Shown here: piece after piece, positions 4,197 through 32,552 of the stretch
How positions within the stretch are numbered: the first letter of the stretch is position 1
How the letters are laid out: each line of letters starts with the position of its first letter
Source of the DNA: Methanosarcinaceae archaeon
Lineage (GTDB): Archaea; Halobacteriota; Methanosarcinia; Methanosarcinales; Methanosarcinaceae
NCBI GenBank assembly: GCA_013329415.1
Contig: DUKH01000153.1
Coordinates: 1 to 32,552, forward strand
Direction: 5' to 3'
Length of the DNA: 32,552 nt
Notes under the pieces: generated by a model
The model's database searches: none
Seen by the model: only the letters and a program-made list of their open reading frames with translations
What the model was told of the DNA's origin: nothing
Translations under genes and position numbers: made by a program

Positions 4197-4280
4197 TTTT
4201 TAATAACTCCTTTCTATGAATCCTTTTTTGAAGTATCTCTGATCCACGGTACATTCTTTCTTGAATTCATCACTATCTAC

Positions 4281-4367
4281 TGCATCATTTCAAATGTATC
4301 GCCATTGAATGCATCATCGTAAACGTATTGCCATTTAATGCATCATCGCAAATTGCGCCATTTTTAT
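4281..4367. repeat. 29-bp tandem repeat, three units
   Basis: Units begin at 4281, 4310 and 4339, each starting TGCATCAT and containing a CGCCATT/TGCCATT block near the end. It lies in the 383-base spacer between the two hydantoinase paralogs, about 90-170 bases upstream of the start of the second one. The rest of this spacer (4370-4579) is T-rich on the plus strand and holds no supported gene. Confidence 0.75.
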
Positions 4368-4579
4368 GAGTTACAGCCATTCTTATTGTTGGGTCGGGTT
4401 TAAATGTCCCATAAGATTGGTCATTAATTCTTTTGCTCCAGAATCAGAAACCTGCTTTTATAGAAATCTTGATTTTAACAGAAATTTCGGTTTTTACCCG
4501 TTTTACGGTTTTTATCTATTTTTATAATATCTGCATATATGAGGGTAAATATAAATTTGCCGGGGGTCAGGTCCGGCTT

Positions 4580-11946: not shown

Positions 11947-12761
11947 CAGCTTGCAAGGATCCAGGCTGCCAGGGAAGTGATCGTAAACAGTCCCCTCATT
12001 CCTGCCTAGGAAAAGCGCTCCAGCGAGAAGTCCTGATCAAGCAGGCCCATCACACGACAAGCATTGAGAGGAACCCTCTTACGCTTGAGGAAGTGGGACC
12101 GGTCATTGATGGAAAGGATGTCCTTGCCCATGAGAAGAGCAAAAAGGAAATTCAAAATTATGTGGATGTACTGAAGTAGATAGACTCTCTTCCTGAATAC
12201 GAAACCATAAGCGAAGAGTCGCTCCTGGAAATCCACAGGCTCACTGCAAAAAATATCCTGCCGGATGATTCCGCCGGACACTACCGGAAAGTGCGGGTTA
12301 TAGTAGGGAACCCGAAAACAGGAAAGGTCACCTATACCCCTCCAGGCCCTGGGGAAGTCCCTGCGCTTACAAAAACCTTTGTCGAGTGGCTGAACAGTGA
12401 AGATGCCCTTGACCTCATACCCGCCATGCAGGCAGGAATTGCCCATCATGAACTTGCCAGGATCCACCCCTTTGTTGACGGAAACGGAAGAACTGCGAGA
12501 GCCCTTGCCACCCTGATCCTGACAAAGAGGGGCTTTGATACCAAGCGGTTCTTTGCCCTTGAAGAGTACTACAATAAAGATCGTTCCTCCTATTATTCCG
12601 CCCTTTCGAGTGCTGATGCGGGGGACAGGGATTTGGCCGAATGGTTCGAATATTTCCTGTTCGGCATTGCCGTGGAAATCTCAAGGGTCGAAAAAACAGT
12701 CCTGAAACTGAGCAGCGACAGTTCGCGGTTTGATACGGCATTCCGGCTACTATTTTTCTGA
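11947..12761 (+). pseudogene. fic: Fic-family AMP-transferase, decayed
   Basis: The Fic core HPFVDGNGRTARAL matches the HPFx(D/E)GNGRxxR catalytic motif, so the ancestor would have transferred AMP from ATP to a protein. The gene is broken in several ways: no start codon before QLARIQAARE (11947); a TAG at 12007 where a Trp codon is expected; a one-base deletion shortly after (about 12013), which puts the KQAHHTTSIE block in another frame; an Arg where homologs usually have Gly in the following ERNPLTLEE; and a second TAG at 12177 inside VDVLK-x-IDSLPEYE, where homologs usually have Tyr or another residue. At the 3' end the winged-helix domain seen in many homologs is missing, and the last codons run into a dispersed repeat (TTTGATACGGCATTCC). 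Only the part from 12180 is one continuous frame. Confidence 0.8.
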
Positions 12762-16957: not shown

Positions 16958-18688
16958 ATGATTCAGGACACTTCTGAATATAAAGGAAAGGAGAGAAAAA
17001 AAGTATCAGCCTATATGACGGCGATACTACTGCTATTTTATATAGCCGCAAAGTATCTCTACAAAATTGAATTTATTTTAAAAGAATTAGTTGAGTGGAA
17101 ACTATTTCCAATAATGATTTTCTCTGGTGATTACTTTAACATAGTCCCTGATGAAATTGCAACCGCAACATCAGTATTAATTTATTTCATAATTGGTTAC
17201 GAAATAGCTTCGGATATACTTTCTATTTTTTATGGTTCTTTTAGTGAAAAGTGGTGGATGAGACTTTTTTTCAGTTCAAATTCAGTTATATTTTTCTTAT
17301 TTCTGTATTACATCCCTTCTCTTGGTATTTTTCATGTGATTTTTCTTTTAGTAGCTTTTGTTATCACGATTAAAATAATGAAAAATGAATCTGATATGGT
17401 TCATTTCTATGGTCCTGTGCCTAATTTTATAAAGTTTGTTGGAAGCCTTAAAGGTCTCAAATTCGATGAAATGAAAAAATCATTAAGTCCAAAGATCATT
17501 CTTTGTGCCTTTGTATGTTCTTGTATGCTTTTGAATTTTATTTCTTTCATGTTAGGGTCTTTGTGGTGTTTGTTTTTAAAGTTGGATTTTGTATTTATTT
17601 TCTTAATGGTTGTATGGTTAACTAGAGAATATTTTAGTTTTAGCAATATATGGGGTAAGAATAAAAAAAATTCAAACATAAAAAAAAGTAATCCTGTTAC
17701 GGAGGGTGATATAGCCCTCAATTTACTGTTTTTTTATCGGGATGTCAAGGTTAAAAAACCTAAAGAAGTTGGAACTTTAGACTTCATAAAAGGTATAATG
17801 ACCCTTGTAATTATAGGAATTGCTTTTGTATCTTTTATGCACATTCAATTTTTAATTTCTTGTATTTCTGTTATTTTTTCTTACTTCACTAAATATCAAA
17901 GTTTGAGTTCATTGTTAGCGATGTTAACAATATTTTTGCTTGTATTTTCATTAATCTTTCAATTTTATTTTTGGTATATTGTTTTAAAGAGATTCCCCTA
18001 TTTCATAAAATTCTGGCCTGAAGCAGATTCTAATGTAAGCATTAATGCTCCGAGATTGCCGAAAGGTGGATATTTTTCTTTCGTACTGAACACATTTATC
18101 ATAGTTTTTTTGTCATTTTTCCTTATGTTATGGGCCTTTGCAAACGTTACTAAAAGTGGAGCTGTGGAATCTCTAAATTATGGGGAGATTATCCAAACTT
18201 TTACAGAAGGAATTCTTTTTTTAGTTCCAATAATTATTATTATTTTTTTCATTGAGGTCTACTTCGCATTTGCTGCACTGAATTATAGAAATATGAAGGA
18301 ATTGAACAGTGATAATTTACGCATCGATAACTTGGGAATAATTGTTGCAACCACAATTCAAGGTTTGGGTTTTAGTCTTTTTACAATTTCGATGCGGTGT
18401 ATTTTTGGAAATCAGGACTTTTTACAAAATATTCTTAGTTTTCTACTGATTTATTTTGCTTCAACTATAGCCTTTTACACTCCTGATTTACTTTATTATT
18501 TAAAAAAGACGTCAAAATTCAAATTGGTAACCTCTAACGGGCTTTCAATCCCCCTATTTGTAGTTTCAATTTTTATTGCCATATCAGGATTTGCCTTCAA
18601 AGTTGTTTCAGGAGATTCTGGTATCTTTATTTTAGGAATCTTTTCGAGTTTTATAACTGGTATTTCGATATTTGTAAAAGACAAATAA
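16958..18688 (+). CDS. Polytopic membrane protein, unknown function
   Basis: About 577 residues with roughly 12 hydrophobic helices spread over the whole length, in several helical pairs, and a loop of charged residues near 240-290. No motif known to me. The gene is strongly AT-rich compared with its neighbours, with poly-A and poly-T runs, which suggests foreign origin. It lies between an hsdM 3' remnant and an intact hsdS and may have been inserted into a type I operon. ATG 16958 was chosen because residues before it (open back to GTG 16877) look like translated spacer; GTTGAAG upstream is a weak ribosome site. It could be a membrane component of a defence system or an unrelated cargo gene. 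Confidence 0.6.
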   Translation: MIQDTSEYKGKERKKVSAYMTAILLLFYIAAKYLYKIEFILKELVEWKLFPIMIFSGDYFNIVPDEIATATSVLIYFIIGYEIASDILSIFYGSFSEKWWMRLFFSSNSVIFFLFLYYIPSLGIFHVIFLLVAFVITIKIMKNESDMVHFYGPVPNFIKFVGSLKGLKFDEMKKSLSPKIILCAFVCSCMLLNFISFMLGSLWCLFLKLDFVFIFLMVVWLTREYFSFSNIWGKNKKNSNIKKSNPVTEGDIALNLLFFYRDVKVKKPKEVGTLDFIKGIMTLVIIGIAFVSFMHIQFLISCISVIFSYFTKYQSLSSLLAMLTIFLLVFSLIFQFYFWYIVLKRFPYFIKFWPEADSNVSINAPRLPKGGYFSFVLNTFIIVFLSFFLMLWAFANVTKSGAVESLNYGEIIQTFTEGILFLVPIIIIIFFIEVYFAFAALNYRNMKELNSDNLRIDNLGIIVATTIQGLGFSLFTISMRCIFGNQDFLQNILSFLLIYFASTIAFYTPDLLYYLKKTSKFKLVTSNGLSIPLFVVSIFIAISGFAFKVVSGDSGIFILGIFSSFITGISIFVKDK

Positions 18689-18738
18689 TAAATTCAAATT
18701 ATCCCGTCAGTACCTCACTCAATTCCCTTATGGAAAGT

Positions 18739-18756
18739 CCCGAGCTGGCGCTCGGG
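18739..18756. terminator. Hairpin CCCGAGC-TGGC-GCTCGGG
   Basis: A perfect 7-bp G+C stem with a 4-base loop lies between the convergent stops of the membrane protein gene (18688) and hsdS (18858). It is followed on the plus strand by GGAAATTTTCCC rather than a T-run, so it could equally be a remnant of the local hairpin repeats. Confidence 0.4.
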
Positions 18757-18857
18757 GGAAATTTTCCCGAAAAAAAGTATGAAGAATCAGCAAGTGAAGG
18801 AATTATAACGTTTCAATTTGCTGATTCGAGATCAAGATAAATTAAACAACTCTATTT

Positions 18858-20561
18858 TTATATTTCGGCGGCGGCACTTTCTAATAACCCCCGAACAACC
18901 GCCTCCATCATCCGCTCGCTCTCTTCCCGCCCCTTTCTAAGTTTTCTTTCAAGTTCATCGCACAAACCTATGAGCTGCTCAACTCTTTCAACGATGCGTT
19001 TTTGTTCATTGAGGGGTGGGAGAGGGATAAATAAATTTTGAATTTTATTAAGATACAGACACGGTTGAGCTGATTGTTTTACATTTCTCCATATTTGGCT
19101 TTGAAGAAAAGGACTTTTCATTGCTATGGCAACGTACTCAGGATAAATGTATTTTTCATCAACTCTTATTAAGGAAACACTACGGACAAGTACAAAGTTT
19201 ATTGGATTCTTAATAAGGCAGAGTCTTCCAGTTGTTGCACCTACACATACCATAAGTATATCGTTGTGTGAAGGATTGCATCGTTTCCAACATTTCTCTG
19301 CGGTATCGTAGGAAACAAAATCAGTGTTTTCGAGGTCTAAGTATCCATCTCTAACATTCTTCGCTGTAGCAAGTGGAACTTCAGTTTGATCAATTCTTGT
19401 GGGCGTTTTATGTTCTCCATCTGTTACCAGTAAACTGAATTCTCCAATTCTTGATGATCTCCGAGTTTTTGGAAGTTTAAACTTCAAATCAAGTATTTCA
19501 GTAACTTTGGATGAATTCAGTTGATTCTGCTTTCTATCCTTTTTGGCAGTTATTTTCTCAATCAAAACACTTGCCGGCTCATCCCCCTCATCCTGCTCCA
19601 CAAGCTTCCCCTTAACCGCAAGCTGAAGAACCGCCTTCCTAAGTTTTTCAACATTCTCAGGGTTGTCATAGAGAAGATCAAAGTTTTCGCAGATGCGCCG
19701 CCAGTTCTCTTCGAATTCATCCTGACTTTCGGCGCTGAGCATTTTATCAAGGGCAGCGCTGTTGAGCTTGCTTCGGAGTTCCTTCTTCTTTTGCTGGCGG
19801 GCTTCAAGTTGGTCGCAGAGAGCCATCAGTTCGTCGACTTTTGAGACGATGCGTTTTTGTTCGGTGAGGGGTGGGAGAGGAAATGGTATCTGTTCCCACT
19901 TTGACTTGTTGATTATTGGGAGAGTTCCTGCAGAAGCATTCTGTATAACCTGATTTTGGAAATACTTTGACTTCAATGCATGAGTTATGAATCGAGAATT
20001 AATTAATGAATAAGGTGAAATTGAATTAATTTGCTGATTGCAAGAAACGTTTTTCTCAACATGACCAGTTTTTCCTATGGATCCCCCTATGCAAACCATC
20101 AATACTGAACCTTTTGGGATAAACCTTCCTGAGTTTAATCCCAGCTCTGAGAGTTCTTCACCATCATACTTTATTCCATATTGGCTTAAATCAGCAGGTT
20201 TAATAAATGGAATAAAATTTCCAAAAAAATCAGGATTACTTTTTGATGGTGTTGTACCTGTTTGTGTATAACCTAAATTTCCAAGTCTTGTCCATGTCCA
20301 AGATTCGTGAGTTTTAAACGGAATCTCACTTTCGCTAATAGATGTCAATGACCTTGATTTCTTAATTATTCCTTCTTTAACAAGCCTTTTTTTCTCAACC
20401 TCAATTTTTTCGATCAAAGCCGAAGCAGGCTCATCCTCAGGATTCTGAGGAACAAGTTTTCCCATAACCGCAAGCTGCAAAATAAGCTCTCTTAACTTCT
20501 GAACTCCATTCGGCGCCTCTGCCAGCATTTCAAAATTCTTAAAAAAAATATTTGGGTCCAT
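18858..20561 (-). CDS. hsdS: Type I restriction specificity subunit HsdS
   Basis: Specificity subunit with the usual two-fold design: conserved region 1 (VQKLRELILQLAVMGKLV), first target recognition domain (about residues 70-225), central conserved helix (LPPLTEQKRIVSKVDEL), a second copy of the conserved start (VEKLRKAVLQLAVKGKLV), second target domain (about 345-510), and a distal conserved helix (LPPLNEQKRIVERVEQL). It would direct HsdM/HsdR to a bipartite site. Both target domains are visibly more AT-rich than the conserved parts, as expected for exchanged modules. The gene looks intact at 567 residues. It starts 16 bases after the stop of the upstream nuclease-like gene (AGAAGATC before the ATG), so they share an operon. 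Only an hsdM remnant is present upstream and no hsdR, so it is orphaned here unless partners exist elsewhere. Confidence 0.9.
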   Translation of the reverse strand: MDPNIFFKNFEMLAEAPNGVQKLRELILQLAVMGKLVPQNPEDEPASALIEKIEVEKKRLVKEGIIKKSRSLTSISESEIPFKTHESWTWTRLGNLGYTQTGTTPSKSNPDFFGNFIPFIKPADLSQYGIKYDGEELSELGLNSGRFIPKGSVLMVCIGGSIGKTGHVEKNVSCNQQINSISPYSLINSRFITHALKSKYFQNQVIQNASAGTLPIINKSKWEQIPFPLPPLTEQKRIVSKVDELMALCDQLEARQQKKKELRSKLNSAALDKMLSAESQDEFEENWRRICENFDLLYDNPENVEKLRKAVLQLAVKGKLVEQDEGDEPASVLIEKITAKKDRKQNQLNSSKVTEILDLKFKLPKTRRSSRIGEFSLLVTDGEHKTPTRIDQTEVPLATAKNVRDGYLDLENTDFVSYDTAEKCWKRCNPSHNDILMVCVGATTGRLCLIKNPINFVLVRSVSLIRVDEKYIYPEYVAIAMKSPFLQSQIWRNVKQSAQPCLYLNKIQNLFIPLPPLNEQKRIVERVEQLIGLCDELERKLRKGREESERMMEAVVRGLLESAAAEI

Positions 20562-20577: not shown

Positions 20578-21123
20578 TTATTCGACTACTGAGAAGAATT
20601 TGACTGCGAAATCGCAGAACTGAATGATAACTTCTTTGTCAAGTTCGAATTCTTTTCTGGAGCCAAGGTAGTTTTTGGAAGTGGGGGTTACTGCTTTTCC
20701 TTCTTTCAGTTCTTTGTATGTGGCGCATTTGATGTGTTTTTTCGAAACAACTACGAAGTGGCAGTTTTCGTAGGGGTAATCTTCTCCTGCGTCTTTGAGT
20801 TCGAAGGTTTCGCTTTTCCTGAATTTTACTTCGATGAAGAATACTTCACCGGTTTTCTTGTTCTGGACAACGAAGTCCGGCATCCTTCTGATCGTGTAGG
20901 TTACATCGTTTTCTACGCCTCTAAGCTGCTCCATGATGCCGGGGATGGTGTTTTCCATGCCAAAGCGGTATACGGAATAGTTCAGGTGGAGGAACAATTC
21001 TTCTACAAGGGTTTCTGCGATCCTGCCTTTGATCATGTTTTCGACAAATTTTCCATCCCTTTCGGAGAAATTGGAGGCTTTATCGGAGTCCTGGGATTTG
21101 GGGGGTTTTGTTGGAGTTGCCAT
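20578..21123 (-). CDS. PD-(D/E)XK nuclease-like protein in type I operon
   Basis: A 181-residue product with a PD-(D/E)XK-type core: Glu37 in KGRIAETLVEEL, then MPDFVV (Asp83), then FFIEVK (Glu98, Lys100). Such a fold usually cuts DNA. It lies between hsdM and hsdS remnants on the same strand, a place where some type I operons carry accessory genes. The frame starts at ATG 21123, but in the shifted frame just upstream a zinc-finger N-terminus (MGYFCSVCKSDITEKE) continues into the same region. If one G is removed from the six-G run at 21100-21105, the two become one protein of about 223 residues. So the annotated start may be only a restart within a frameshifted gene. Confidence 0.7.
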   Translation of the reverse strand: MATPTKPPKSQDSDKASNFSERDGKFVENMIKGRIAETLVEELFLHLNYSVYRFGMENTIPGIMEQLRGVENDVTYTIRRMPDFVVQNKKTGEVFFIEVKFRKSETFELKDAGEDYPYENCHFVVVSKKHIKCATYKELKEGKAVTPTSKNYLGSRKEFELDKEVIIQFCDFAVKFFSVVE

Positions 21124-21274: not shown

Positions 21275-21607
21275 TCAATTATGATTTAAGGAGTTTATAA
21301 GTTCTTCTTTTAGTTCCTGCCTGACTTCGGAGATTTCGGAAAGCAGGCCCCTGTACTCTTCCAGAAGTTCTTCAGGGTCTCCGTGGTCATTTTCCACGGT
21401 GTTCGGGTTTTTGATGTCGAGGTTGTAGTTGTTAGCAATAACATCTTCAGCCGAGACTTTCCAGGCGTGTTCGGTTTCCACCCTGTTGTTCCACCAGGCT
21501 TTTTCGGGTTCGAATTCTTCGATGCGCATGGGTTTGGTTTTGGAGTAGGACTTGTAGCCGGCAGGGTAGGGGTGTTCGTAGTACCAGATTTCATAGATTA
21601 CGAGTGG
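21275..21607 (-). pseudogene. hsdM 3' remnant, second type
   Basis: About 110 codons of an HsdM C-terminus: IWYYEHPYPAGYKSYSKTKP, then MRIEEFEPEKAWWNNRVE, VSAEDVIANNYNLDIKNPNT and a coiled-coil end (LLEEYRGLLSEISEVRQELK). The catalytic region is missing; the frame is stopped at 21608-21610, beside the recombinase gene. The internal ATG at 21529 would give only 84 residues. The C-terminus differs from that of the other hsdM remnant, so two distinct type I systems have been damaged in this locus. Confidence 0.85.
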
Positions 21608-21654
21608 TCACTTTTTTATAATTTTATTCCATTTAACGTCGGAAGCGATCGATT

Positions 21655-23040
21655 ATGAGTTCCCCACAAGATAATTATGAACTAAAAAGACATCAAAATG
21701 TCGATAATGATTTTATAAAACGTTATCTGGAGAGGGTAAATTCAGGTAGCAGTAGGGATATCAGGCGGGTAAAAGAATGGTTCACGATAATTGGCGCAAA
21801 GCAGGCAACTAAAATTTCCTATATTCAGGCATTTGCGCAGTTCCTTGAATACACAAAAATGACTCCCGATGAGCTAATCAAGGAAGCAGACAATGAAATT
21901 TCTGAAGGAGTGCAGGCAACAAGGCGAAAAATAAAATTACGCATCCTTGATTACAGAGAGCACATACAGGAAAGAGGACTGGCCCCAAAAACAGTTAACA
22001 AGCACATTAGCGCCATTATCAGCTTTTACAAAAGTGCTGAAATTGACATTCCCCAAATAAATCACAGGAAATCGAAGGTACTGCCTCTCTTAAAGAATAA
22101 AAAATTTCCTACAAAAAAGGAGATACTTGAGGTTCTCAGGTATGCGGACATAAGGGATCTGGCAATTATCCTGGTTCAGTCAACCAGTGGCCTGTCGGTC
22201 AATGAACTTGTGACACTCAGAGTAGGTGATATTAATAGGGGCTACGACAAAGAAACCGGTGTCACAACTCTTCGAATGCGCAGGCAGAAAGTCGATTTCG
22301 ATTTCGTAACATTTCTCTCACCAGAGGCATCAAAAGCCGTTCTGGACTACATAGAATACCGCAACAGAAAACCCTTCACCAACGAGAAAAGAAGGCAAAT
22401 GGAGTATGAAAAGAGAAAAATAAACTCTGATAACGACTTCTTGTTTATTAAGAAGGTGATTCCTGATGGATATCTCGAGACTCAAGACGAAAAACTGAGA
22501 AGACTGGGCCGCCCCGGAGTGATGCAGGTGTACAAAAGGTTGGGAAAGAAAGCAGGGATGGACACTCCGAAGGGAGATTGGGGTTTTATACGCTCACATA
22601 ATATGAGGAAGTACTTTAATACATCCTTACTAAACGGCGGTCTCGACATTTTTTCCGTGGATTATTTTATGGGGCACACGATGGACGATACGCATTCGGC
22701 CTATTTCTCCCCTGACCCTGAAAAGTTAAAACTCAAGTACCTGAGGCACCTGCCCTATCTTGAGGTTTCCGACACGGAAACCAAGGTCATTGAAACTGCG
22801 GAATACAAAGAGCTGAGGGAAGAAAAAGAGCGCCTTAACCAGAAAGTCGGGAAACTTGAACTGGATCTGGAAAAGTTCTCACGATTGCTCGAAAGGGATT
22901 CCACAAACCTTAAAAATGAGGCAATTGCCAAACTGTTTGAAGACGACGAAACTATGAAACTATTCATAAGCAAGTTACTCCAGTATGAGGGTGATCCTCA
23001 AAAAATCCAGGGCTTCCTATCAGGAGTCGGAAAAAAGTGA
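21655..23040 (+). CDS. Tyrosine recombinase / integrase
   Basis: A 461-residue site-specific recombinase: an N-terminal SAM-like core-binding domain (about 20-130), a catalytic domain (about 150-365) and a C-terminal coiled coil (about 375-425). Catalytic landmarks are His315-x-x-Arg318 (SHNMRKYF), Gly340-His341 (FMGHTMD) and Tyr350 (HSAYFS). The usual first catalytic Arg in the T-G-L-R motif is Ser181 here (SGLSVNEL), which may reduce or abolish activity, or be compensated within this archaeal branch. The gene begins about 45 bases from the broken hsdM and points into the defence genes, suggesting it came with an element that removed the rest of hsdM. ATG 21655 has GGAAGCGA upstream. No attachment-site repeats were recognised. 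Confidence 0.85.
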   Translation: MSSPQDNYELKRHQNVDNDFIKRYLERVNSGSSRDIRRVKEWFTIIGAKQATKISYIQAFAQFLEYTKMTPDELIKEADNEISEGVQATRRKIKLRILDYREHIQERGLAPKTVNKHISAIISFYKSAEIDIPQINHRKSKVLPLLKNKKFPTKKEILEVLRYADIRDLAIILVQSTSGLSVNELVTLRVGDINRGYDKETGVTTLRMRRQKVDFDFVTFLSPEASKAVLDYIEYRNRKPFTNEKRRQMEYEKRKINSDNDFLFIKKVIPDGYLETQDEKLRRLGRPGVMQVYKRLGKKAGMDTPKGDWGFIRSHNMRKYFNTSLLNGGLDIFSVDYFMGHTMDDTHSAYFSPDPEKLKLKYLRHLPYLEVSDTETKVIETAEYKELREEKERLNQKVGKLELDLEKFSRLLERDSTNLKNEAIAKLFEDDETMKLFISKLLQYEGDPQKIQGFLSGVGKK

Positions 23041-23133
23041 AGTTGGGACACTTAAAGTGAGAAGGAAAGAAATCGAACACGTTTTTAATACATTTAAGGG
23101 TGAGGAGAACATTGCAAAAAGATTGGATTCTCC

Positions 23134-23409
23134 TTACTCGATCTTTTTCTCGAGATTTTTTATTTCTGCCAGCACACGAGAGCCCTCGTCAGATATCTGG
23201 TAATACCTGCATACCTTTTCATCAGGTGTAATGCATTTTACAAGACCGCGTTTTTCAAGCGCAAGAACCGCCCTACTAACGCTTGACCTGTGAGCCATAA
23301 GGATGTCTGCCAGTTCCGTGGGGGTGTGCGGCCTCCTGAGTTCTATAAGGGTTCCTTTCCTTATTTTCCCCCGATTTACAAAACTGACCAGTTCGTATAA
23401 TTCGCTCAC
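23134..23409 (-). CDS. Winged-helix transcription regulator, small
   Basis: About 91 residues with a winged-helix DNA-binding domain: TPTELADILMAHRSSVSRAV is a helix-turn-helix, followed by LEKRGLVKCI and a wing strand, RYYQISDEGSRVLAEI. It resembles archaeal MarR/ArsR-type regulators without metal-binding cysteines at usual positions. The start is uncertain: TTG 23418 or GTG 23409; a TATA-like box (near 23432-23441) lies so close that a nearly leaderless GTG start is attractive. It is transcribed away from the GmrSD-like gene and lies next to a set of phased GTAAC repeats, so it probably controls itself and perhaps the defence genes. Confidence 0.75.
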   Translation of the reverse strand: MSELYELVSFVNRGKIRKGTLIELRRPHTPTELADILMAHRSSVSRAVLALEKRGLVKCITPDEKVCRYYQISDEGSRVLAEIKNLEKKIE

Positions 23410-23422
23410 AAGTAGCAAAGAC

Positions 23423-23478
23423 GTAACTTATTTTTATATATTATTGTAACATATAAGTAACATGAGCGTAACATTGAT
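23423..23478. promoter_or_regulatory. Phased GTAAC repeats, candidate operator
   Basis: GTAAC occurs at 23423, 23446, 23457 and 23468; the last three are spaced by exactly 11 bases, and the first is 23 bases away, so all lie on about one face of the DNA. They surround the TATA-like ATATATAAAA of the regulator gene and precede the GmrSD-like gene, fitting cooperative binding by the neighbouring winged-helix protein. Confidence 0.6.
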
Positions 23479-23553
23479 TTTACAATGTCTTGCGCATTGC
23501 TAATTTGCAACCTCAAAAACAACCCCATACAGGGCAAAAGAGGAGATTACAAA

Positions 23554-25254
23554 ATGGAGGCACGCGCCACACCAATACAGAGAATTCTGGATTCCAACGT
23601 GCAATTAATCGTTCCGATTTTCCAGAGAGAATATTCATGGGAGATCGAACAGATAAAAACGCTATGGGAAGACATCCTAAAAGTATACGAATATAATTAC
23701 AACATAAAAGCCAAAGACCATGACGAGATCTCGCATTTTCTGGGTCCTATTGTCCGGTCCGAGATCCCGAGCAGTTCCGTCGATATCAGACGGACCTATA
23801 TGATTGACGGGCAGCAGCGCATAATAACAATAATGGTTTTCCTGTCGGCCATACGAAACCGCATGCGACACCTCAATGATTCCATCGCACGTAAAATCGA
23901 TTATATGTACTTGCTCAACATTGAGGAAGAGGACGAAAATCGATTTAAACTAAGACCAAGCGAGGCTGACAGGGATAATTTCACAAAAATCCTGCTCGGG
24001 AAAACAAACCTGATAGACAGCCCACTGAAAGAGTGTTTTGATTTCATTAATAACGAACTCGATACCAGAGAAGACCTGGATCTGGAAAAGCTTCGAGCGA
24101 TTATCGTCAGGAACCTGATCCTCGTAAATATCGATGTCGGGAGCAATGAAAATCCTTATTTTATTTTTGAGAGCCTGAACGCAAAGGGTCTTCTGCTTAC
24201 CCAGCCTGACCTGATCAGGAATTACGTGTTCATGAAAATACCCTCTGAGTCCAGGCAGATAGAGCTATTCCGCAAATACTGGCATCCTCTGCAAATGGAG
24301 CTTGAAGGAGAGATCGATTCTTTTTTCTGGCAATACTCACGGCTGGACGGGGAGTTGACCAAGAAAGAGCGGACCTACAGAAACCTCAAATTCGAACTTG
24401 AGCCGCACGACAATGGTTCAATCGAAAAAAAGCTGCAGCACATAAAACAATTTGCACAATACCATTCCCGAATAATAAATCCGGATAACGAGGAAATCCC
24501 GGAGATAAGGACGCGCCTGAGGCGATACCGGCAGTGGGACGTAAAATCAAGTCCCCACCCCTTCATACTGAATGTATATGATGACCTTAATTCGGGCAGG
24601 ATTTCACAGAAAGAATTCTGCGAGATTCTTGACATCATCGAATCTTTCATCGTGAGGCGTTCGCTCTCAAAAAGACCTTCTAATCAGCTTAACAAACTAT
24701 TAATCCCTCTTTACCAGAAGGTAGACAAATCCAACTTTGTGCCCTCCCTCCAGCAGGTCCTTCTCCCCGACTGGCCTGATGATTCAGAATTTATAGCCGG
24801 ATTCAAAAAGCAAAACATCTACAGAAGCGGAGTCAACCGAACCAGGCTAATTCTGGAAAGCCTTGAAAACTTCTTTGAGCACGAGGAGCCAATCGATTAT
24901 TCCAATGAAAGCATCCAGATCGAACACATCCTTCCCCAAGCTGGCCGCAAAGTTGAAAATCTCACCTCCGAATGGAAGGAGATGCTCGGGCCTGATTATC
25001 GTGGTGTTTACAATAAATATCTGCACACTATCGGAAATCTAACCCTAACGGGGTACAATTCCGAGGCCTCAAAAAAACCATTCGAAGAGAAAAAAAAGAT
25101 ATACGCCGAGAGTCACTTTGAAATCAATAAATTTTTCAGGGACGTAACCACCTGGAACCAAGAAGAGATTGAGAAGAGGGCGGAGTATCTGGCGAGGATT
25201 GCTGTGAAGATATGGAGGCACCCGAAGGGGAATAAGAGGATCGATGAATATTGA
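23554..25254 (+). CDS. GmrSD-like DUF262/DUF1524 nuclease
   Basis: About 566 residues. The N-terminal DUF262 domain carries VPIFQREYSW (near residue 20) and IDGQQR (near 84), the NTP-binding/hydrolysis signature of GmrS-like proteins. The C-terminal DUF1524 domain has the HNH-type motif IQIEHILPQ (near 455) and IGNLTLTGYN with a following Lys/Phe-rich segment (near 492). Single-chain proteins of this type cleave modified phage DNA (type IV restriction) or act with phosphorothioate systems; which applies here is unknown. The ATG 23554 has AGGAG eight bases upstream, so the longer frame from 23485 is not needed. It stands alone between the regulator and the helicase gene, separated from the latter by about 420 bases. 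Confidence 0.85.
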   Translation: MEARATPIQRILDSNVQLIVPIFQREYSWEIEQIKTLWEDILKVYEYNYNIKAKDHDEISHFLGPIVRSEIPSSSVDIRRTYMIDGQQRIITIMVFLSAIRNRMRHLNDSIARKIDYMYLLNIEEEDENRFKLRPSEADRDNFTKILLGKTNLIDSPLKECFDFINNELDTREDLDLEKLRAIIVRNLILVNIDVGSNENPYFIFESLNAKGLLLTQPDLIRNYVFMKIPSESRQIELFRKYWHPLQMELEGEIDSFFWQYSRLDGELTKKERTYRNLKFELEPHDNGSIEKKLQHIKQFAQYHSRIINPDNEEIPEIRTRLRRYRQWDVKSSPHPFILNVYDDLNSGRISQKEFCEILDIIESFIVRRSLSKRPSNQLNKLLIPLYQKVDKSNFVPSLQQVLLPDWPDDSEFIAGFKKQNIYRSGVNRTRLILESLENFFEHEEPIDYSNESIQIEHILPQAGRKVENLTSEWKEMLGPDYRGVYNKYLHTIGNLTLTGYNSEASKKPFEEKKKIYAESHFEINKFFRDVTTWNQEEIEKRAEYLARIAVKIWRHPKGNKRIDEY

Positions 25255-25675
25255 GAAATGAGTATCTCACAAGTCATGGAGATCAATTCCAGATCTCACA
25301 TAACATTTTTTATGAATTGAAATTTAAAAAGTTAATATTAAAAATCATGAAGGAAAGAAATAAAGTTTACTTGAAAAACTTTTACTCTTACTTCAGGGTA
25401 ACGTAATCTACCAACTGTCTATCATTTTTCTTTGAAACACTCATACTTACATATCTCTGTTTTCAAGCTTACCTTTATACATAATCAGGAGTTAGAAAGG
25501 TAAACTTATGGTACATTGGAGTATCAAGTGACTTGAAAAAATTGACTCATTATTGATGATACAGTCAAACTTTGTATATATGAATCCTTTTCATTTAACG
25601 AATAGACTATTTTATATATTATCAACATTACAACTACTCCATATTTAACGGACAGTATTGCACACGGGTATTAAT
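25255..25675. other. Intergenic spacer before helicase operon
   Basis: AT-rich, with no frame I can support. It contains a short palindrome TGAGTATCTCA (25259-25269) and the predicted promoter of the helicase-methylase pair at its right end. Confidence 0.45.
25610..25621 (+). promoter_or_regulatory. TATA box of the helicase-methylase operon
   Basis: TTTTATATATTA lies about 55-65 bases before ATG 25676, predicting a leader of about 30 nt. It is the strongest TATA candidate in the spacer. Confidence 0.5.
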
Positions 25676-28606
25676 ATGGACATAAAACCGGGAGATATCG
25701 TAGATCTGCGTCACAGGCTCTGGCGTGTTGATTATGTTGACGGGGAAAGCAAGGTATTCCAAGCTACTAATATTGACGGAGGAAGACCCAGAAGGCAAAA
25801 ATTCTATTATCCGCTTGAGTCCGTCAGTGAGGCCAGCATTCCCGAGCCTTCACTTGAAAAAATAGGAGATTCGGCAACAAACAAATTGCTGATTCAATCA
25901 TTCCGTTATTCTATTCTTCATGGTTCTGCTCCACTTTTGAGCCTTCAGAGGAGCAGTGTGATTCCCCCACACTACCAGCTTGTGCCTGTGGTAATGGCCC
26001 TTAACAAAAGCGAGAGGGTCCGCATGCTGATCGCTGATGACGTGGGGTTGGGGAAAACCGTGGAAGCAGGGCTTATTGCAACCGAGCTGATGGCAAGAAA
26101 CCTGGTGTCCAGAATTCTTGTAATATGTCCGAAAAACCTGTGTGAGCAGTGGCGTGATGCGCTGCATTCTTTTTTCCAGATCGATGCGAGGGTTATCTCT
26201 TCAGTCCATAGAAGGGTGCTTGAAAGGAATTTGCCGCCCGGAGCAAGTCCCTGGAAGCATTACCCGTTTCTTATTGCGTCCATAGATTATACCAAGAAGG
26301 ACCCTACGAAGTACCAGGTCCTTGAAGTGCCCTGGGACCTTGTGATTGTGGATGAGGCACATCTGGCTGCAAAACCTCACCAGATTACTGAAAAGCAGAG
26401 TGTATCAATGGAGAGGTATAATTTTGTAAAAGAGCTCACAGCTCAGAAGCAGGTAAAGAACCTCCTTTTCCTGACTGCAACTCCACACAATGGATACACT
26501 GATACTTATGCCAGTCTTCTCAATATGCTTGACTGCGGGATTGTTAGCGGTCCTATAAATGAGCCCAGGATTAACAGGGATATTGCAAAACACCACGTCT
26601 GCCAGAGAAGAAGAAAAGACGTGGAGGACTGGTTCAAGGAGCACTCCGAAGAGGAGAATCCATTCCCTGAACGCAACCAGGAAGAAGTTACCATTGATCT
26701 GGTACACGAGGAAGAAAAAGAAATTATTGAAAAACTTGAACGGTACGGGAAAGGGATCCTGAACCTTGCCGAGGGAGGAAGCCATAAAGTCCGGATGACG
26801 GCCCAGTGGGTTGTGATGCACCTGCAAAAAAGAGCCCTGTCTTCTCCCGATGCACTGAGGATTTCATTGAAAAACCGTCTGGAACGTGTTGTCGAGAAGA
26901 TTGAAAAGGAGGAAACTTCCGATGATATTAACATCAGCGTGGCTCAGGCAAAGGCAAGTGCCCTGGATGAGGAACTGGTCGATGACCTGAGCGATGAAGA
27001 GGTTTCGACACGGATGGACCAGACATCTTTCGGTTCCCTGGAAGCCCTGAAGGCTGAGAAAGCGGAACTTGAGGAGCTAATCAAACTTGCCAGCAGAATC
27101 ACATCGGCAAAGGACAGCAAATTGAAACGCCTTACCAATCCGAAGAATGGTATCTTAAAAAATTCGGTTTCAGGTGTTTACGGGACAAAGAAGGCTATCA
27201 TATTTACCCGATACAAGGATACACTCGATTACCTGGAAAAGGAAATCCCGAAGCAGTTAAGGAAAACCATCTCTCAGGAGCAGGTCGTTACCGTAGACGG
27301 GGACCTTACGGATGCCCTTCGAAACGAAAGGCTTGCAGAGTTCCAGAAGCTTGACCAGGGGATTCTGATTGCAACGGACTGTATCAGTGAAGGTATCAAC
27401 CTCCAGCACATGGCTAACCAGGTTATCCACTATGAACTTCCCTGGAACCCGAACAGGCTCGAGCAGAGGAACGGGCGTGTGGACAGGTACGGGCAGAAGG
27501 CAAGGAAGGTGTATGTCAGGACCCTGGTAATGAACGATACCCTTGATGCTACGATTCTTAAGGTGCTGGTCAGGAAAGCAAAACAGATCCGTGAGGATTA
27601 CGGGTTTGCACCTCCGTTTTTCGGGGACGACAGCAATGTCTTTGATATGATCCAGGATATCGGCGTGGAGAAATTGCCAAGCTCCCAGAGTTCGCTCTTT
27701 GAGTTTGATGGCGGTGCAAGAAAGGATGGGGAGAAGGTCCCGGACCATGAAAAGGTGAACCCCTTTGATAACGAAGTTCTGGAAAATATCAAGGCAGAGA
27801 GTTTCTATGGGCAGACCGATGTGGACCTTTCGGAGATCAGGAGACGCCTGAAGGAAACCGAGGAGTCGATCGGGACCCAGGAAGAGTTCACGACTTTTGT
27901 GCTCAATGGGCTGAGAAGTTTCGGATGCACTGTTACGGAGAACATGGACCTCCAAAACAGCCTTAAGATAGAGCTTTCAAGCCGCTTTAAGGTAGGCGGC
28001 TACGGGGAAACTATAGAAAAAGCTACTTTTGACCCGAAGGTTGCAATTGAAAACATCGATATAGAACACCTGAATGTCGGGCACCCGGTTATAAGGCGCC
28101 TGTTTGAACTTGTTAAGAACTCGGTTTTCGATCCCAGGAGGGAAGAATACGGAAGGACTTCTGTGGTCAGCACGCCCGAGGTCGAGAAAGTGACTGCAAT
28201 GTACTTTTTCCTTGTGCGTTTTACGGTGGGTACGGAATCGGTCAGCATAATTGAAGAAATCATACCGGTTGCTTGCAACCTGATTGACAGGAAGGCCCTT
28301 TCCCAGGATGAGATTTACAAATTGATCAGGGCAAGCCCTGCACCCAGCCGCAGACCGAAGGAAGATTACCTGAGGCACCTGGAGCTTGCAATGAAACCTG
28401 AAATGTACGAGGCAGCTTTTGAAGATACTGTTAATATGCACGTTGAAAGGATCGGCCAGGAGAGGGGTGCTCTAAAGGAGAAGTTGATGCAGGACAGCGA
28501 GAACCATGAATGGCTGGAGGGGATTGACAGGATTGAAAGGGCATCAAGTGACCTTGTGGCTGTTCGACTGCTTGAACCTGTACCAAAAACGGGGGTGAGG
28601 GAATGA
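25676..28606 (+). CDS. SNF2-family helicase, DrmD-like
   Basis: A 976-residue superfamily 2 helicase. A small N-terminal beta domain (GDIVDLRHRLWRVD) precedes motif I DVGLGKTVEA (residues 122-131), DEAH (226-229), motif III LTATPHNG, and the C-terminal lobe with IATDCISEGINLQ and RLEQRNGRVDRYGQ (about 600). A charged helical insert sits between the two lobes. The combination with the overlapping giant adenine methylase downstream is that of DrmD-DrmMI in class 1 DISARM, which protects methylated host DNA and restricts phage DNA. The frame starts at TTG 25658, but ATG 25676 is preferred. ATGA overlap with the next gene shows translational coupling. It could also be part of another helicase-methylase defence type; downstream genes would decide. 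Confidence 0.85.
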   Translation: MDIKPGDIVDLRHRLWRVDYVDGESKVFQATNIDGGRPRRQKFYYPLESVSEASIPEPSLEKIGDSATNKLLIQSFRYSILHGSAPLLSLQRSSVIPPHYQLVPVVMALNKSERVRMLIADDVGLGKTVEAGLIATELMARNLVSRILVICPKNLCEQWRDALHSFFQIDARVISSVHRRVLERNLPPGASPWKHYPFLIASIDYTKKDPTKYQVLEVPWDLVIVDEAHLAAKPHQITEKQSVSMERYNFVKELTAQKQVKNLLFLTATPHNGYTDTYASLLNMLDCGIVSGPINEPRINRDIAKHHVCQRRRKDVEDWFKEHSEEENPFPERNQEEVTIDLVHEEEKEIIEKLERYGKGILNLAEGGSHKVRMTAQWVVMHLQKRALSSPDALRISLKNRLERVVEKIEKEETSDDINISVAQAKASALDEELVDDLSDEEVSTRMDQTSFGSLEALKAEKAELEELIKLASRITSAKDSKLKRLTNPKNGILKNSVSGVYGTKKAIIFTRYKDTLDYLEKEIPKQLRKTISQEQVVTVDGDLTDALRNERLAEFQKLDQGILIATDCISEGINLQHMANQVIHYELPWNPNRLEQRNGRVDRYGQKARKVYVRTLVMNDTLDATILKVLVRKAKQIREDYGFAPPFFGDDSNVFDMIQDIGVEKLPSSQSSLFEFDGGARKDGEKVPDHEKVNPFDNEVLENIKAESFYGQTDVDLSEIRRRLKETEESIGTQEEFTTFVLNGLRSFGCTVTENMDLQNSLKIELSSRFKVGGYGETIEKATFDPKVAIENIDIEHLNVGHPVIRRLFELVKNSVFDPRREEYGRTSVVSTPEVEKVTAMYFFLVRFTVGTESVSIIEEIIPVACNLIDRKALSQDEIYKLIRASPAPSRRPKEDYLRHLELAMKPEMYEAAFEDTVNMHVERIGQERGALKEKLMQDSENHEWLEGIDRIERASSDLVAVRLLEPVPKTGVRE

Positions 28607-31600
28607 ATACAGGCAATTCCGGGTGTATCCATGTTTCAGGGAGTTTGATCCCTTCACAGTTTGTATTTTCAATGCAGGGAGATACGGTCAGCTTTGATTT
28701 TGCAAAACCTTCGACCTTCAAGGTCCCCTGGGACGATGAAGATAGCTCCCCTGATTCAAAGGAGTATGATTTCAGAGTCCAGGACGCTTTTGAGAGCCTG
28801 AAACGCCGCTGGGATATGTACGGGCCAAAGTTGAGGGCCATGAGTCCAGAGGATACCCGCAAGTACTGGCAAAGACCGCTACTGGAGGCTCTTGGTTTCA
28901 ATCTTGCTTATTCCCAGAAACACAGGGAGATCAGCGAGAGCCTCAAGTTCAATTTTTCACACAAGGGGTGGAGGGAGGTTGCCGGAGTTCCAAAACCCCC
29001 TGTGGTACACCTCATTTCCCCTTCCATGGGCCTTGACGACAGGCTGGTACGCGGAGAGCCTTGTGCCCATGATGCCCTGCAGGGCTACCTGAACACCAAC
29101 GAAGACAAGTGGGCGGTGCTTACGAACGGGCTTTTCCTGCGCCTGCTTCGGGACTTTCACCACACCACGGTTAAAGGGTATGTGGAGTTTGACATCGAAG
29201 CCATCTTCCACAACCGGCTGTTTTCGGAGTTCCAGGCCCTGTACAGGTTTGCCCACGCAAGCCGATTTGCTCCGGCACCTTCAAAGAAAAAGGACGAGCC
29301 GGGAGAGTCCTATCTTGAGGAATACTTCAAACGAAGCCAGGCAGTCGGGGAATCGGTGGGAAGGAACCTGCGGGAAAACGTCGTGAAAGCGATCGAAGCT
29401 TTCGGGAACGGTTTTCTTACAAGTGAGCTGATGGAAATCCTGCGGAAAGATGAGAAAGAGTGCCACATCTATTATGAAGAAATCCTGCGGGTGATCTACC
29501 GCATCATTTTCCTGCTCTATGCCGAACAGCGTGGCCTCCTCGGCGGCCATGAAACCCCGGGGCATGACCTCTACCTGGAAAACTACAGCATAACAGCCCT
29601 CAGGGACTTTGCAGCCGAGACCATTGAGGACAACAACTTCCAGAACGATTCCCACAAAGACCTCTGGGAAGGCTTGCTTGTCACATTCAGGATGATAAAG
29701 AAAGGGGTGAACGAACTTGGCATCTACCCGTACAATGGCATGCTTTTCGATATGGCTGCAGACAAATACGTGGGCAAATTCTCCTGCAAAAATAGCGGGT
29801 TCCTGGATGCAGTCCGCTTCCTGACCCTTACGGAAATCGACGGAGTCAGGCAGTCTATCTCCTATGCCGACCTTTCCGTAGAAGAGTTCGGCTCGATCTA
29901 CGAAAGCCTCCTTGACTACGCCCCAAGGATCACCTCAGCCCCCGAAGAAATCGAGGGCAGGAAATACGCCCCTAACCGCTTCATCCTCGACCCGAGAGGC
30001 TCGGACAGAAAGTCCACAGGCTCCTACTACACAAACCCTGGCCTTGTCCAGGAGTTAATCAAAAGCGCCCTGATCCCGGTCCTCGAAGCCCGCCTGGAAG
30101 AAGCCACCGACACCCCCAGGGCAAAAGAAGACGCCCTGCTGTCCATAAAAGTCTGCGACCCAGCCTGCGGAAGCGGAGCTTTCCTTATCGCAGCCTGCAA
30201 CAAGCTCGGAAGAGAACTTGCAAAGATCAGGTCAGGCGAGGAACTCCCGGCCCAGGACGTAGAACAGGAAGCCAGACGCGACGTCCTCCTGCACTGCATC
30301 TACGGTGTGGACATAAACCCCATGGCCGTGGAACTTGCCAAAGTCTCCCTCTGGATCAACGCCGCAGTCAGGGACAAGCCCCTGAACTTCCTCGACCACC
30401 ACATAAAATGCGGAAACTCCCTTATAGGTGCAACCCCCGAGCTTATGGAAAAAGGCATTCCAAATAATGCTTTCAATCCCGTAGAAGGCGACGACAAGAA
30501 AGTTGCTTCCCACTTCAAAAAGATCAACAGAGAGCAGAAAAAGAACAAAACCTTTACAGGCTGGCTTGTAAAAGACGGTACGGCAAAAGTCTGCTGCAGG
30601 GAATTTGCCAAACTCGACGAAGAAATAGAACAGACTCCAAAAGAAGTGATAGAAAAAAGAGACCACTACGAAGCTCTCCTCTCCAGCAAAGAATACAACC
30701 GCCTGAAGTTCCTCTCCGACCTCTGGACAAGCGCCTTCTTCTGGCCCCTCACAGACGAAAAGGAAGACGTGATAACAAACGGCACTTTCATGGCATATGC
30801 CTCAAATGACCTCCTTGATCCCTCCGCCGAATTCACCCAAAAAGTCTCAGGTCTCGCCCAGGAATACAGGTTCTTCCACTGGCACCTCGAATTCCCCGAT
30901 GTCTTCAACGGAGAAAACCAGGGCTTTGACTGCGTACTCGGAAACCCCCCATGGGAGAGAATAAAACTCCAGGAAAAAGAATTCTTCGAATACCGCTCCC
31001 CAGATATCGCAAAAGCCAGCAACGCCTCCCAGCGAAAAAAGCTAATCAAGAAACTCTGTGAAGATGACCCAGCCCTTGACCAGGCATTCAGAAAGGCAAA
31101 GTGCATGAGTGAATGTGAAAGCCTCTTCCTTCGAGAGTCTGGCCGATTCCTCCTCACAGGCAAAGGTGACATCAACACATACACCGTCTTCACCGAACAC
31201 GCCCGCAACTCAATCAATACCCTCGGGTATGCAGGCATCATAGTCCCCACAGGCATCGCAACCGACAACACAACCTCCGAATTCTTCGGAGACATTGTGA
31301 ACAAGAAAAACCTCAAAAGCCTATATGATTTTGAAAATAAGGAAGCACTCTTCCCGATCCATAGAAGCTTTAAATTCTGCCTCTTAACGATGGTTGGAAG
31401 GGAAGTTGTGCCGAGGGCCTTTGACATGGCTTTTTTCCTGCATAATTTAGAGGATGTGAATAGCAGTGAAAAGCATTTTTCCCTTACCACAAGAGACATC
31501 AAACTGATTAACCCAAACACCCTGAACTGTCCAATCTTTAGAAGCAAAAGGGATTCGGAAATAACAAAACAAGTCTATCGCAAGGTCCCAGTTCTTATCA

Positions 31601-32552
31601 ACGAAAATGAAAAGAATGGAAACTCTTGGGGCTGTTCATTCTTGAGAATGTTTGATATGGCTAACGATTCTCACCTATTCAAGACGAAAGATGAGCTTGA
31701 AGAGTTGGGTTTTGAATTAGATGGAAATCAATATTTCAAAGAAAATGATGTTTTTTTGCCTTTATATGAAGCAAAAATGTATAAGAATTTTGATCATAGA
31801 CATGGGACTTTTGCGAGTGTCGATAGTAGAACTAATGTGCAGCTCCCAACCCCCACAATTGAGGATCATTTAAATTTCAATTACGTTGTTAAACCATGGT
31901 ACTGGGTACCTAAATCAGAAGTTGAAAAAAGACTGAATTCAAAAGTAGAATGGTTTATTGCTTTTCGAGATATTGCACGTTCAACAGATGAACGTACAGG
32001 AATATTTTCACTATTGCCTTCATCAGGTGTTAATCACAAATCTCCATTGGTATTTTTTAATAACACCAGCCCAATTCATAGTTCTCTATTTTTAGCAAAT
32101 GTTAACTCGATGCCTTTTGATTATGTTTTGAGGACAAAAATGGGTGGTACTTCTCTCGGCTATTTCATCTTAAAACAACTTCCCATTTTTCCTCATAATA
32201 TATATGTTGCACACATAATCGACTTAATAATACCTCGCACAATCGAACTCACCTATACCGCCTGGGATCTCAAACCTTTCGCTGAAGATGTCCTCGAAGA
32301 AATTGGCCCAGAAAAGTGGAACGAATGGTTCCCAGAAAACCCGCTTGTGGTCGGCGTCCCGCAGCCGTTCAGATGGGATGAAGAGCGGCGGTTGCAGTTG
32401 AGGTGTGAGCTGGATGCGGTTTATGCACACCTGTATGGGATCTCGAAGGATGACCTAGATTATATTCTCGGGACCTTTCCGAATGTGAGGAGGAAGGATG
32501 AGGCGAGGTACGGGACGTACAGGACGAGGGATTTGATTATGGAGTACTATGA
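28603..32552 (+). CDS. Eco57I/PglX-like adenine methyltransferase, DrmMI-like (partial)
   Basis: Open from ATG 28603 to the window end without a stop, so at least 1316 residues. An N-terminal domain (about 1-250, nuclease-like HSDR_N flavour but without clear catalytic residues) precedes helical sequence; the SAM-binding motif DPACGSGAF lies near residue 520 and the catalytic NPPW near 780 (LGNPPWERIK). It transfers methyl groups to adenine N6. The start overlaps the helicase stop by four bases (ATGA), with GGTGAG just upstream. The segment from about 31500 to 32225 changes to AT-rich codons, whereas the rest has the G+C-rich style of the helicase; this segment is likely the target recognition part. 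As DrmMI it would mark host DNA as self. It resembles BREX PglX too, but the SNF2 partner favours DISARM. Confidence 0.85.
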   Translation, partial: MNTGNSGCIHVSGSLIPSQFVFSMQGDTVSFDFAKPSTFKVPWDDEDSSPDSKEYDFRVQDAFESLKRRWDMYGPKLRAMSPEDTRKYWQRPLLEALGFNLAYSQKHREISESLKFNFSHKGWREVAGVPKPPVVHLISPSMGLDDRLVRGEPCAHDALQGYLNTNEDKWAVLTNGLFLRLLRDFHHTTVKGYVEFDIEAIFHNRLFSEFQALYRFAHASRFAPAPSKKKDEPGESYLEEYFKRSQAVGESVGRNLRENVVKAIEAFGNGFLTSELMEILRKDEKECHIYYEEILRVIYRIIFLLYAEQRGLLGGHETPGHDLYLENYSITALRDFAAETIEDNNFQNDSHKDLWEGLLVTFRMIKKGVNELGIYPYNGMLFDMAADKYVGKFSCKNSGFLDAVRFLTLTEIDGVRQSISYADLSVEEFGSIYESLLDYAPRITSAPEEIEGRKYAPNRFILDPRGSDRKSTGSYYTNPGLVQELIKSALIPVLEARLEEATDTPRAKEDALLSIKVCDPACGSGAFLIAACNKLGRELAKIRSGEELPAQDVEQEARRDVLLHCIYGVDINPMAVELAKVSLWINAAVRDKPLNFLDHHIKCGNSLIGATPELMEKGIPNNAFNPVEGDDKKVASHFKKINREQKKNKTFTGWLVKDGTAKVCCREFAKLDEEIEQTPKEVIEKRDHYEALLSSKEYNRLKFLSDLWTSAFFWPLTDEKEDVITNGTFMAYASNDLLDPSAEFTQKVSGLAQEYRFFHWHLEFPDVFNGENQGFDCVLGNPPWERIKLQEKEFFEYRSPDIAKASNASQRKKLIKKLCEDDPALDQAFRKAKCMSECESLFLRESGRFLLTGKGDINTYTVFTEHARNSINTLGYAGIIVPTGIATDNTTSEFFGDIVNKKNLKSLYDFENKEALFPIHRSFKFCLLTMVGREVVPRAFDMAFFLHNLEDVNSSEKHFSLTTRDIKLINPNTLNCPIFRSKRDSEITKQVYRKVPVLINENEKNGNSWGCSFLRMFDMANDSHLFKTKDELEELGFELDGNQYFKENDVFLPLYEAKMYKNFDHRHGTFASVDSRTNVQLPTPTIEDHLNFNYVVKPWYWVPKSEVEKRLNSKVEWFIAFRDIARSTDERTGIFSLLPSSGVNHKSPLVFFNNTSPIHSSLFLANVNSMPFDYVLRTKMGGTSLGYFILKQLPIFPHNIYVAHIIDLIIPRTIELTYTAWDLKPFAEDVLEEIGPEKWNEWFPENPLVVGVPQPFRWDEERRLQLRCELDAVYAHLYGISKDDLDYILGTFPNVRRKDEARYGTYRTRDLIMEYY

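Follow-up and report, generated by a model that had tools for sequence, protein, structure and literature searches.

A probable ARMADA Type I locus on a mobile element inserted in the hsdM gene of a Methanosarcinaceae archaeon

The contig DUKH01000153.1 of a Methanosarcinaceae archaeon (assembly GCA_013329415.1) breaks off within the gene for a large adenine methylase that directly follows a helicase gene, and the question that this locus raises is to which defence system the pair belongs and what brought it next to a recombinase. The window analyzed here is the whole contig (G000:C97, below C97; 32,552 bases), downstream of which nothing can be read in the assembly, which comprises 3.86 Mb in 226 contigs, is ~95% complete and has its nearest relatives in Methanosarcina. 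Along C97, a tyrosine recombinase is followed by a winged-helix protein, a GmrSD-type nuclease, a RapA/SNF2-type helicase and an Eco57I-type adenine methylase, and all five genes lie at the places, in the order and on the strands given by a first-pass annotation. We consider it highly probable (about 0.88) that the locus forms the left portion of an integrated mobile element on which ARMADA Type I, in the archaeal order armA-armB-armC, travels together with the GmrSD-type nuclease and the regulator. The ARMADA Type I gene set was known before; its mobile context in hsdM is new.

The helicase-methylase pair and the third gene of its relatives

The helicase (ArmA) and methylase (ArmB) genes are coupled through an ATGA overlap that joins the stop of the first to the start of the second, and the methylase frame runs off the contig without a stop, as the first-pass annotation had read them. 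The start of ArmA is more likely the ATG at 25676 than the TTG at 25658 listed as the start of its open reading frame (ORF), because the relatives align from that methionine. The protein carries the motifs GLGKT, DEAH, SEGIN and QRNGRVDR, and a PDB search with it returned RapA chains (92 bits). ArmB carries the motifs DPACGSG (residue 519) and NPPW (residue 781), and a PDB search with it gave no match; it probably lacks about 10-20 C-terminal residues in the contig, because its last readable residues align near the end of the relatives. When compared with Methanosarcina sp. DH2, ArmB residues ~841-1200 are 26-66% identical and the remainder 73-100%, the first 60 residues excepted, and this variable region is a probable target-recognition domain, a name that we infer. 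The identity jump at 32245 was also considered as a recombination joint, but much of the window's version is shared by UBA8098, which lacks such a boundary, and the jump is better read as the place where the variable region ends.

Among the PADLOC models, DrmD scored best on the helicase (406 bits) and BrxHII next (287 bits), while the methylase was matched best by DrmMI (285 bits), then by type IIG enzymes (225 bits), with PglX at 44 bits. The region can therefore still be described as a defence island that is linked to a recombinase and contains a drmD/drmMI-like pair, and the proposed comparison of methylase models did not favour PglX. The same pair recurs in archaea and bacteria (the wider bacterial sampling being of plasmids), with identities among archaeal relatives of 43-87% for the helicase and 40-75% for the methylase, and its adjacency is thus not due to chance.

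The third partner in the relatives, those in bacteria and on plasmids included, is a single YprA/DruE-like helicase of ~1,780 residues with a C-terminal Vsr-type nuclease. It lies directly after armB in a Bacteriovoracaceae metagenome-assembled genome (methylase 57% identical), and ~7 kb past armB, with other genes between, in DH2 (methylase 72% identical). The DH2 protein (1781 residues) has DEAD, Helicase_C and MZB domains, and its PDB matches were YprA and two giant DEAD/DEAH helicases, which are probably DruE proteins. Over the first 1000 residues, the third gene of the relatives scored 201 bits with DruE and 30 with DrmA, and the Vsr-like motif PDF..FVDG..H, or a close variant, was present in 15/15 aligned C-termini. 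We mapped loci from archaea, Thermales, cyanobacteria, Chloroflexota, Deinococcus, Actinomycetota and Pseudomonadota; the order was armA-armB-armC in 14 and armC-armA-armB in 6, and a further 2 showed armB-armC at a contig edge. Among 394 Halobacteriota genomes, armC was found in all 12 of the others with a strong ArmB, in 2 of the 42 with only a weak one, and in 11 of the 339 with none.

ARMADA was defined by Bell et al. 2025, who reported the order armA-armB-armC for many archaea and cyanobacteria (PMC12458937). We name the system ARMADA Type I because the gene set and order of the relatives match that definition. The window itself holds two of the three core genes, armA and armB, the latter without its last residues: the first encodes a BrxHII/RapA-like helicase and the second a PglX-like N6 methylase with the S-adenosylmethionine (SAM) and NPPW motifs. 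The assignment is made with a reservation, as the presence of armC at this locus is predicted from the relatives. The main branches of the ArmA, ArmB and ArmC trees agree. Outside the window's group lie a plasmid DISARM (L160, annotated drmA and drmD), the four-gene ARMADA II of E. coli and a haloarchaeal pair of helicase and methylase, some of them, the plasmid DISARM included, on long branches.

An ArmD was not recognized 3′ of armC in DH2 and G155, and the window ends before that point. In two Thermales loci (L053:5204-7225 and L054:5725-7719), we observed full-length homologues of the E. coli ArmD (31-32% identity, E 1e-85 to 1e-91); the Thermales ArmA and ArmC place on the archaeal Type I side of the trees, and ArmD has been reported as a Type II feature. 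On E. coli plasmids (L161 and L167), Zorya II, a DruE-type pair (likely Druantia III) and ARMADA II stand in a row, an arrangement described for E. coli chromosomes. A DUF262 protein lies near a second plasmid copy of ARMADA II (L162).

A mobile element within hsdM

The island truly begins at 21593, immediately beyond a 10-bp core that adjoins the 3′ part of an hsdM gene (Table 1). The beginning of this hsdM is held by another contig of the same assembly, C202, with hsdR upstream of it. In three relatives hsdM is uninterrupted, and C97 and C202 map side by side onto each of the three genes, their alignments overlapping at the junction by 10 bases in two relatives (GAAATCTGGT in G300) and by 13 bases in the third. 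Joining C97 and C202 over one copy of the core gave an HsdM of 481 residues with no stops, which has 92, 86 and 85% full-length identity to the three intact genes. When the two ends of the element were joined to rebuild attP, a 15-base arm with 13 matches was found, inverted, 9 and 11 bases from the core; the order at the predicted circular junction is AAAAAGTGACCACTC...GAAATCTGGT...GAGTAATCACTTTTT. The arm match was equalled in 0/2000 shuffles with 30-base ends, in 5/2000 with 45-base ends and in 4/2000 with 60-base ends. The integrase gene starts 62 bp inside the element end, and relatives of the integrase (28-52% identity) occur in 34 of the 111 other genomes that were searched in the family.

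The locus thus shows direct repeats, a target that is uninterrupted in relatives and an integrase beside one end. An element of at least 13.8 kb, which the tyrosine recombinase probably inserted into hsdM, splits the type I restriction methylase gene, and from the split gene, the repeats, the empty sites and the inverted arms it follows that the ARMADA genes, the GmrSD-type nuclease and the regulator sit on this inserted element. An archaeal ARMADA is thereby assigned to a defined mobile element, for which a core site, inverted arms and empty sites are now described, and the insertion lies in another defence gene, a new system having broken an old one.

The stretch might instead have arisen through two independent insertions at one site, with the GmrSD-type nuclease, the winged-helix regulator and the integrase being unrelated to the helicase-methylase pair. 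The GmrSD gene stands directly beside armA in no relative examined, and base composition differs along the stretch, with a G+C content of 42% in the integrase gene, 44% in GmrSD and 48% in the arm genes, as two insertions would have it. However, the whole stretch, taken with the C202 end, lies between just one pair of direct repeats and inverted arms, and we therefore regard a double insertion as unlikely, although it keeps some weight.

At the far end of the element, C202:1-2881 showed no similarity to the loci of DH2, G155 and UBA8098, and no convincing family was found for its two ORFs. Outside the element, window 20578-21123 encodes a protein of 181 residues, between hsdM and hsdS, that matches no known family; this region also adjoins the intact hsdM in relatives. 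Further away, an ORF at window 12291-12761 has a Fic domain without its start and looks like a fragment, and window 2226-6502, on the minus strand, holds two adjoining paralogous hydantoinase/oxoprolinase-like genes, named by reading the sequence.

Table 1. Features of the window (positions on C97) and the variable intervals of related loci
Feature	Position	Strand	Evidence or remark
hsdS, specificity subunit of the interrupted type I restriction-modification operon	18858..20561	-	Methylase_S 118 bits; Specificity_I 470 bits
Split hsdM, 3′ part	21275..21582	-	5′ part at G000:C202:2882-4019, minus strand
att core, 10-bp direct repeat GAAATCTGGT	21583..21592	-	second copy at C202:2882-2891
Inverted arm AAAAAGTGACCACTC, left end of element	21602..21616	-	mate AAAAAGTGATTACTC (as reverse complement) at right end, C202
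Tyrosine recombinase, 461 aa	21655..23040	+	Phage_integrase 57.7 bits
Winged-helix/MarR-like regulator, 94 aa, TTG start	23134..23418	-	MarR 27.4 bits; HVO_A0261_N 32.9 bits
GmrSD-type (DUF262-DUF1524) modification-dependent nuclease, 589 aa	23485..25254	+	GmrSD_N 110.6, GmrSD_C 103.1 bits; PADLOC Orf5 523 bits
ArmA, RapA/BrxHII-like SF2 helicase, 976 aa	25676..28606	+	SNF2/Helicase_C; DrmD 406, BrxHII 287 bits
ArmB, Eco57I/PglX-like N6-adenine methylase, at least 1316 aa	28603..32552	+	Eco57I 84 bits; DrmMI 285 bits; frame open at contig end
ArmB variable region, residues ~841-1200 (probable target-recognition domain)	31123..32202	+	identity comparison with DH2
armB 3′ segment	32245..32552	+	87-91% identity to three Methanosarcina sp. 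DH2 copies; contig breaks inside
Variable armB-armC intervals of related loci	L062 13-19 kb, L063/L090, L064, L065, L068, L156, L006 14-21 kb		

Other readings of the pair

Several points weigh against an integrated ARMADA Type I. ArmC was not found in the assembly of this genome, where searches with the DH2 protein, split into its first 1000 and last 781 residues, reached at most 36 bits and hit other helicases only, and a degenerate or two-gene remnant is thus possible. In addition, the adjacency of C97 and C202 is deduced from the split gene, not from continuous sequence, and the reported tests were made on the Type II system of E. coli alone, whose genes include a fourth, ArmD (PMC12458937).

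The first of these points would be explained if ArmA and ArmB formed a stand-alone pair that had lost its third gene, either as a methylase-translocase remnant or as a different two-gene defence, and the first-pass annotation had raised such a module as the more novel case. Decay does occur in this family, since broken armB and armC pieces are seen in relatives such as L007 and L071, and UBA8098 has a frameshifted armB and a broken armA. Against this, all 12 other Halobacteriota genomes with a strong methylase match carry the third gene, and in G155 the armB contig likewise ends between armB and armC, yet armC is present on another contig, so that a missing armC in draft assemblies is poor evidence of absence. 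A stand-alone module therefore appears quite unlikely, and under the ARMADA Type I assignment the final codons of armB and all of armC most likely lie in the unassembled gap between C97 and C202:1.

The first-pass annotation had likened the pair to that of DISARM class 1; under such an assignment the genes would be drmD-drmMI, and drmA, drmB and drmC would follow off the contig. The homology to drmD and drmMI stands, as the best PADLOC names are indeed DrmD and DrmMI, but these genes are shared with ARMADA, and the ArmC of that system is distantly related to DrmAB (PMC12458937); a membership in DISARM is not supported, since the relatives whose downstream DNA can be read carry the fused YprA/DruE-like helicase-nuclease. 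At that position drmA, drmB or drmC was found in none of the readable relatives, the third gene there prefers the DruE model to DrmA by far, and the Methylocystis DISARM lies outside the window's clade. We considered the only MZB/DUF1998 gene of the genome (C202, 10.7-13.1 kb) as a candidate drmB. Its overlap with a second helicase frame, which a frameshifted YprA would show, and its place beside proteasome and exosome genes led us to reject this, and the gene is best read as a housekeeping YprA. DISARM class 1 is accordingly very unlikely. It is relevant here that older defence models (PADLOC-DB 2.0.0, 2023) label the ARMADA pair DrmD/DrmMI, so that contigs cut before armC will be miscalled as DISARM.

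To BREX or a relative of it, in which the methylase would be PglX and the helicase BrxHII, we give next to no credence, because the score of the helicase with the BrxHII model is offset by the 44 bits of the methylase with PglX, pglZ, brxC and brxL were not recognized in the window, to which the search for brx genes was limited, and Allomeiothermus was the only case in which a brxL was seen next to armA. In that bacterium, Allomeiothermus silvanus, brxL lies directly upstream of armA (L053:19544-21031), near tubulin-like and vWA genes.

The armB-armC interval, a possible mechanism and known systems

The distance between armB and armC in 16 loci ranged from -34 (an overlap) to 10.9 kb, being within 10 bases in 5 loci and at least 690 bases in 11. 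The long intervals (Table 1) often hold genes of other defences; those noted code for a viperin of the prokaryotic type (248 bits), a CARF regulator like Csa3 (317 bits), a large TPR protein (721 bits) and a ShosA-like protein (219 bits), as well as SIR2 (268 bits), a dGTPase (265 bits), SoFic (374 bits) and an OLD-type ATPase (107 bits). Ten proteins from outside the operon in the same loci scored at most 58 bits, although the inside and outside sets were both picked by hand and the comparison is thus a lead rather than a test. We found no mention of viperin, dGTPase or SIR2 in the main text of PMC12458937. These operon genes suggest that ARMADA serves as a docking place for other antiviral genes.

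The DH2 interval also harbours the armB 3′ end in two additional copies (91% identity over 289 bases and 89% over 225; L006:16961-17248 and 18612-18836). Such pieces are likewise present in L007, L071 and L157, where they stand alone or at contig ends, and at a contig end in G388. The end of C97 inside the armB 3′ segment that matches the DH2 copies would fit an assembly break caused by a repeat. The idea that armB 3′ repeats bound the cargo in all loci was rejected, as extra copies within the interval were found only in DH2, and for the same reason any role of these copies in exchange is speculative. A wider proposal sees the armB-armC space of ARMADA Type I loci in the order armA-armB-armC as a slot whose defence modules can be swapped (viperin together with its CARF regulator and a TPR protein, SIR2, dGTPase, Fic, an OLD-type ATPase, a PIN toxin-antitoxin pair), the Methanosarcina armB 3′ copies marking the joints and driving the exchange by recombination; it is tentative, and on balance we doubt it. 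If true, it would mean one operon with a changing second line of defence; a variable interval, if confirmed, would be a place to seek unknown defence genes and would make modular stacking within one operon testable.

In E. coli, ARMADA Type II protects by a direct, non-abortive route; protection is abolished by Walker mutations in ArmA and ArmC and by NPPW mutation in ArmB, and weakened by mutation of the SAM motif (PMC12458937). Carried over to this locus, these findings suggest the following course. ArmB might recognize its sequence through residues ~841-1200 and mark host DNA, while ArmA, being RapA-like, would translocate on DNA and ArmC, with its YprA helicase and Vsr-type nuclease, would unwind and cut foreign DNA that is unmarked or replicating. 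Together, ArmA and ArmC could locate incoming DNA and process it while the cell survives. To judge from its family, the GmrSD-type protein would cut DNA that contains modified bases, which is the kind that could evade a methylation-based system.

Among known systems, DISARM class 1 has in common with this locus its drmD- and drmMI-like genes, but separate drmA, drmB and phospholipase D drmC genes are found in no readable relative of the clade. BREX has a homologous helicase and methylase (BrxHII and PglX) and differs in the genes named above and in the low PglX score. Druantia is the source of the DruE models that score best on the third gene of the relatives; however, no Druantia partner gene was recognized, and the DruE-like gene is paired with armA and armB, a helicase and an N6 methylase, on which grounds an assignment to Druantia was rejected. 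The GmrSD, BrxU and SspE type IV nucleases share the DUF262-DUF1524 architecture of the neighbouring gene, which is here a separate gene on the same element and lies outside ARMADA as defined. From ARMADA Type I itself, the locus differs in the lack of armC in this assembly, in the GmrSD gene on the same element, and in its hsdM site with a 10-bp core, the ARMADA elements reported earlier occupying tRNA/tmRNA sites with 16-20-nt repeats (PMC12458937). It agrees with Type I in its helicase and methylase, genes that ARMADA shares with DISARM (PMC12458937), while the further likeness is one of its relatives, whose third gene encodes the YprA/DruE-like helicase with MZB domain and C-terminal Vsr-type nuclease and among which the close ones show no ArmD.
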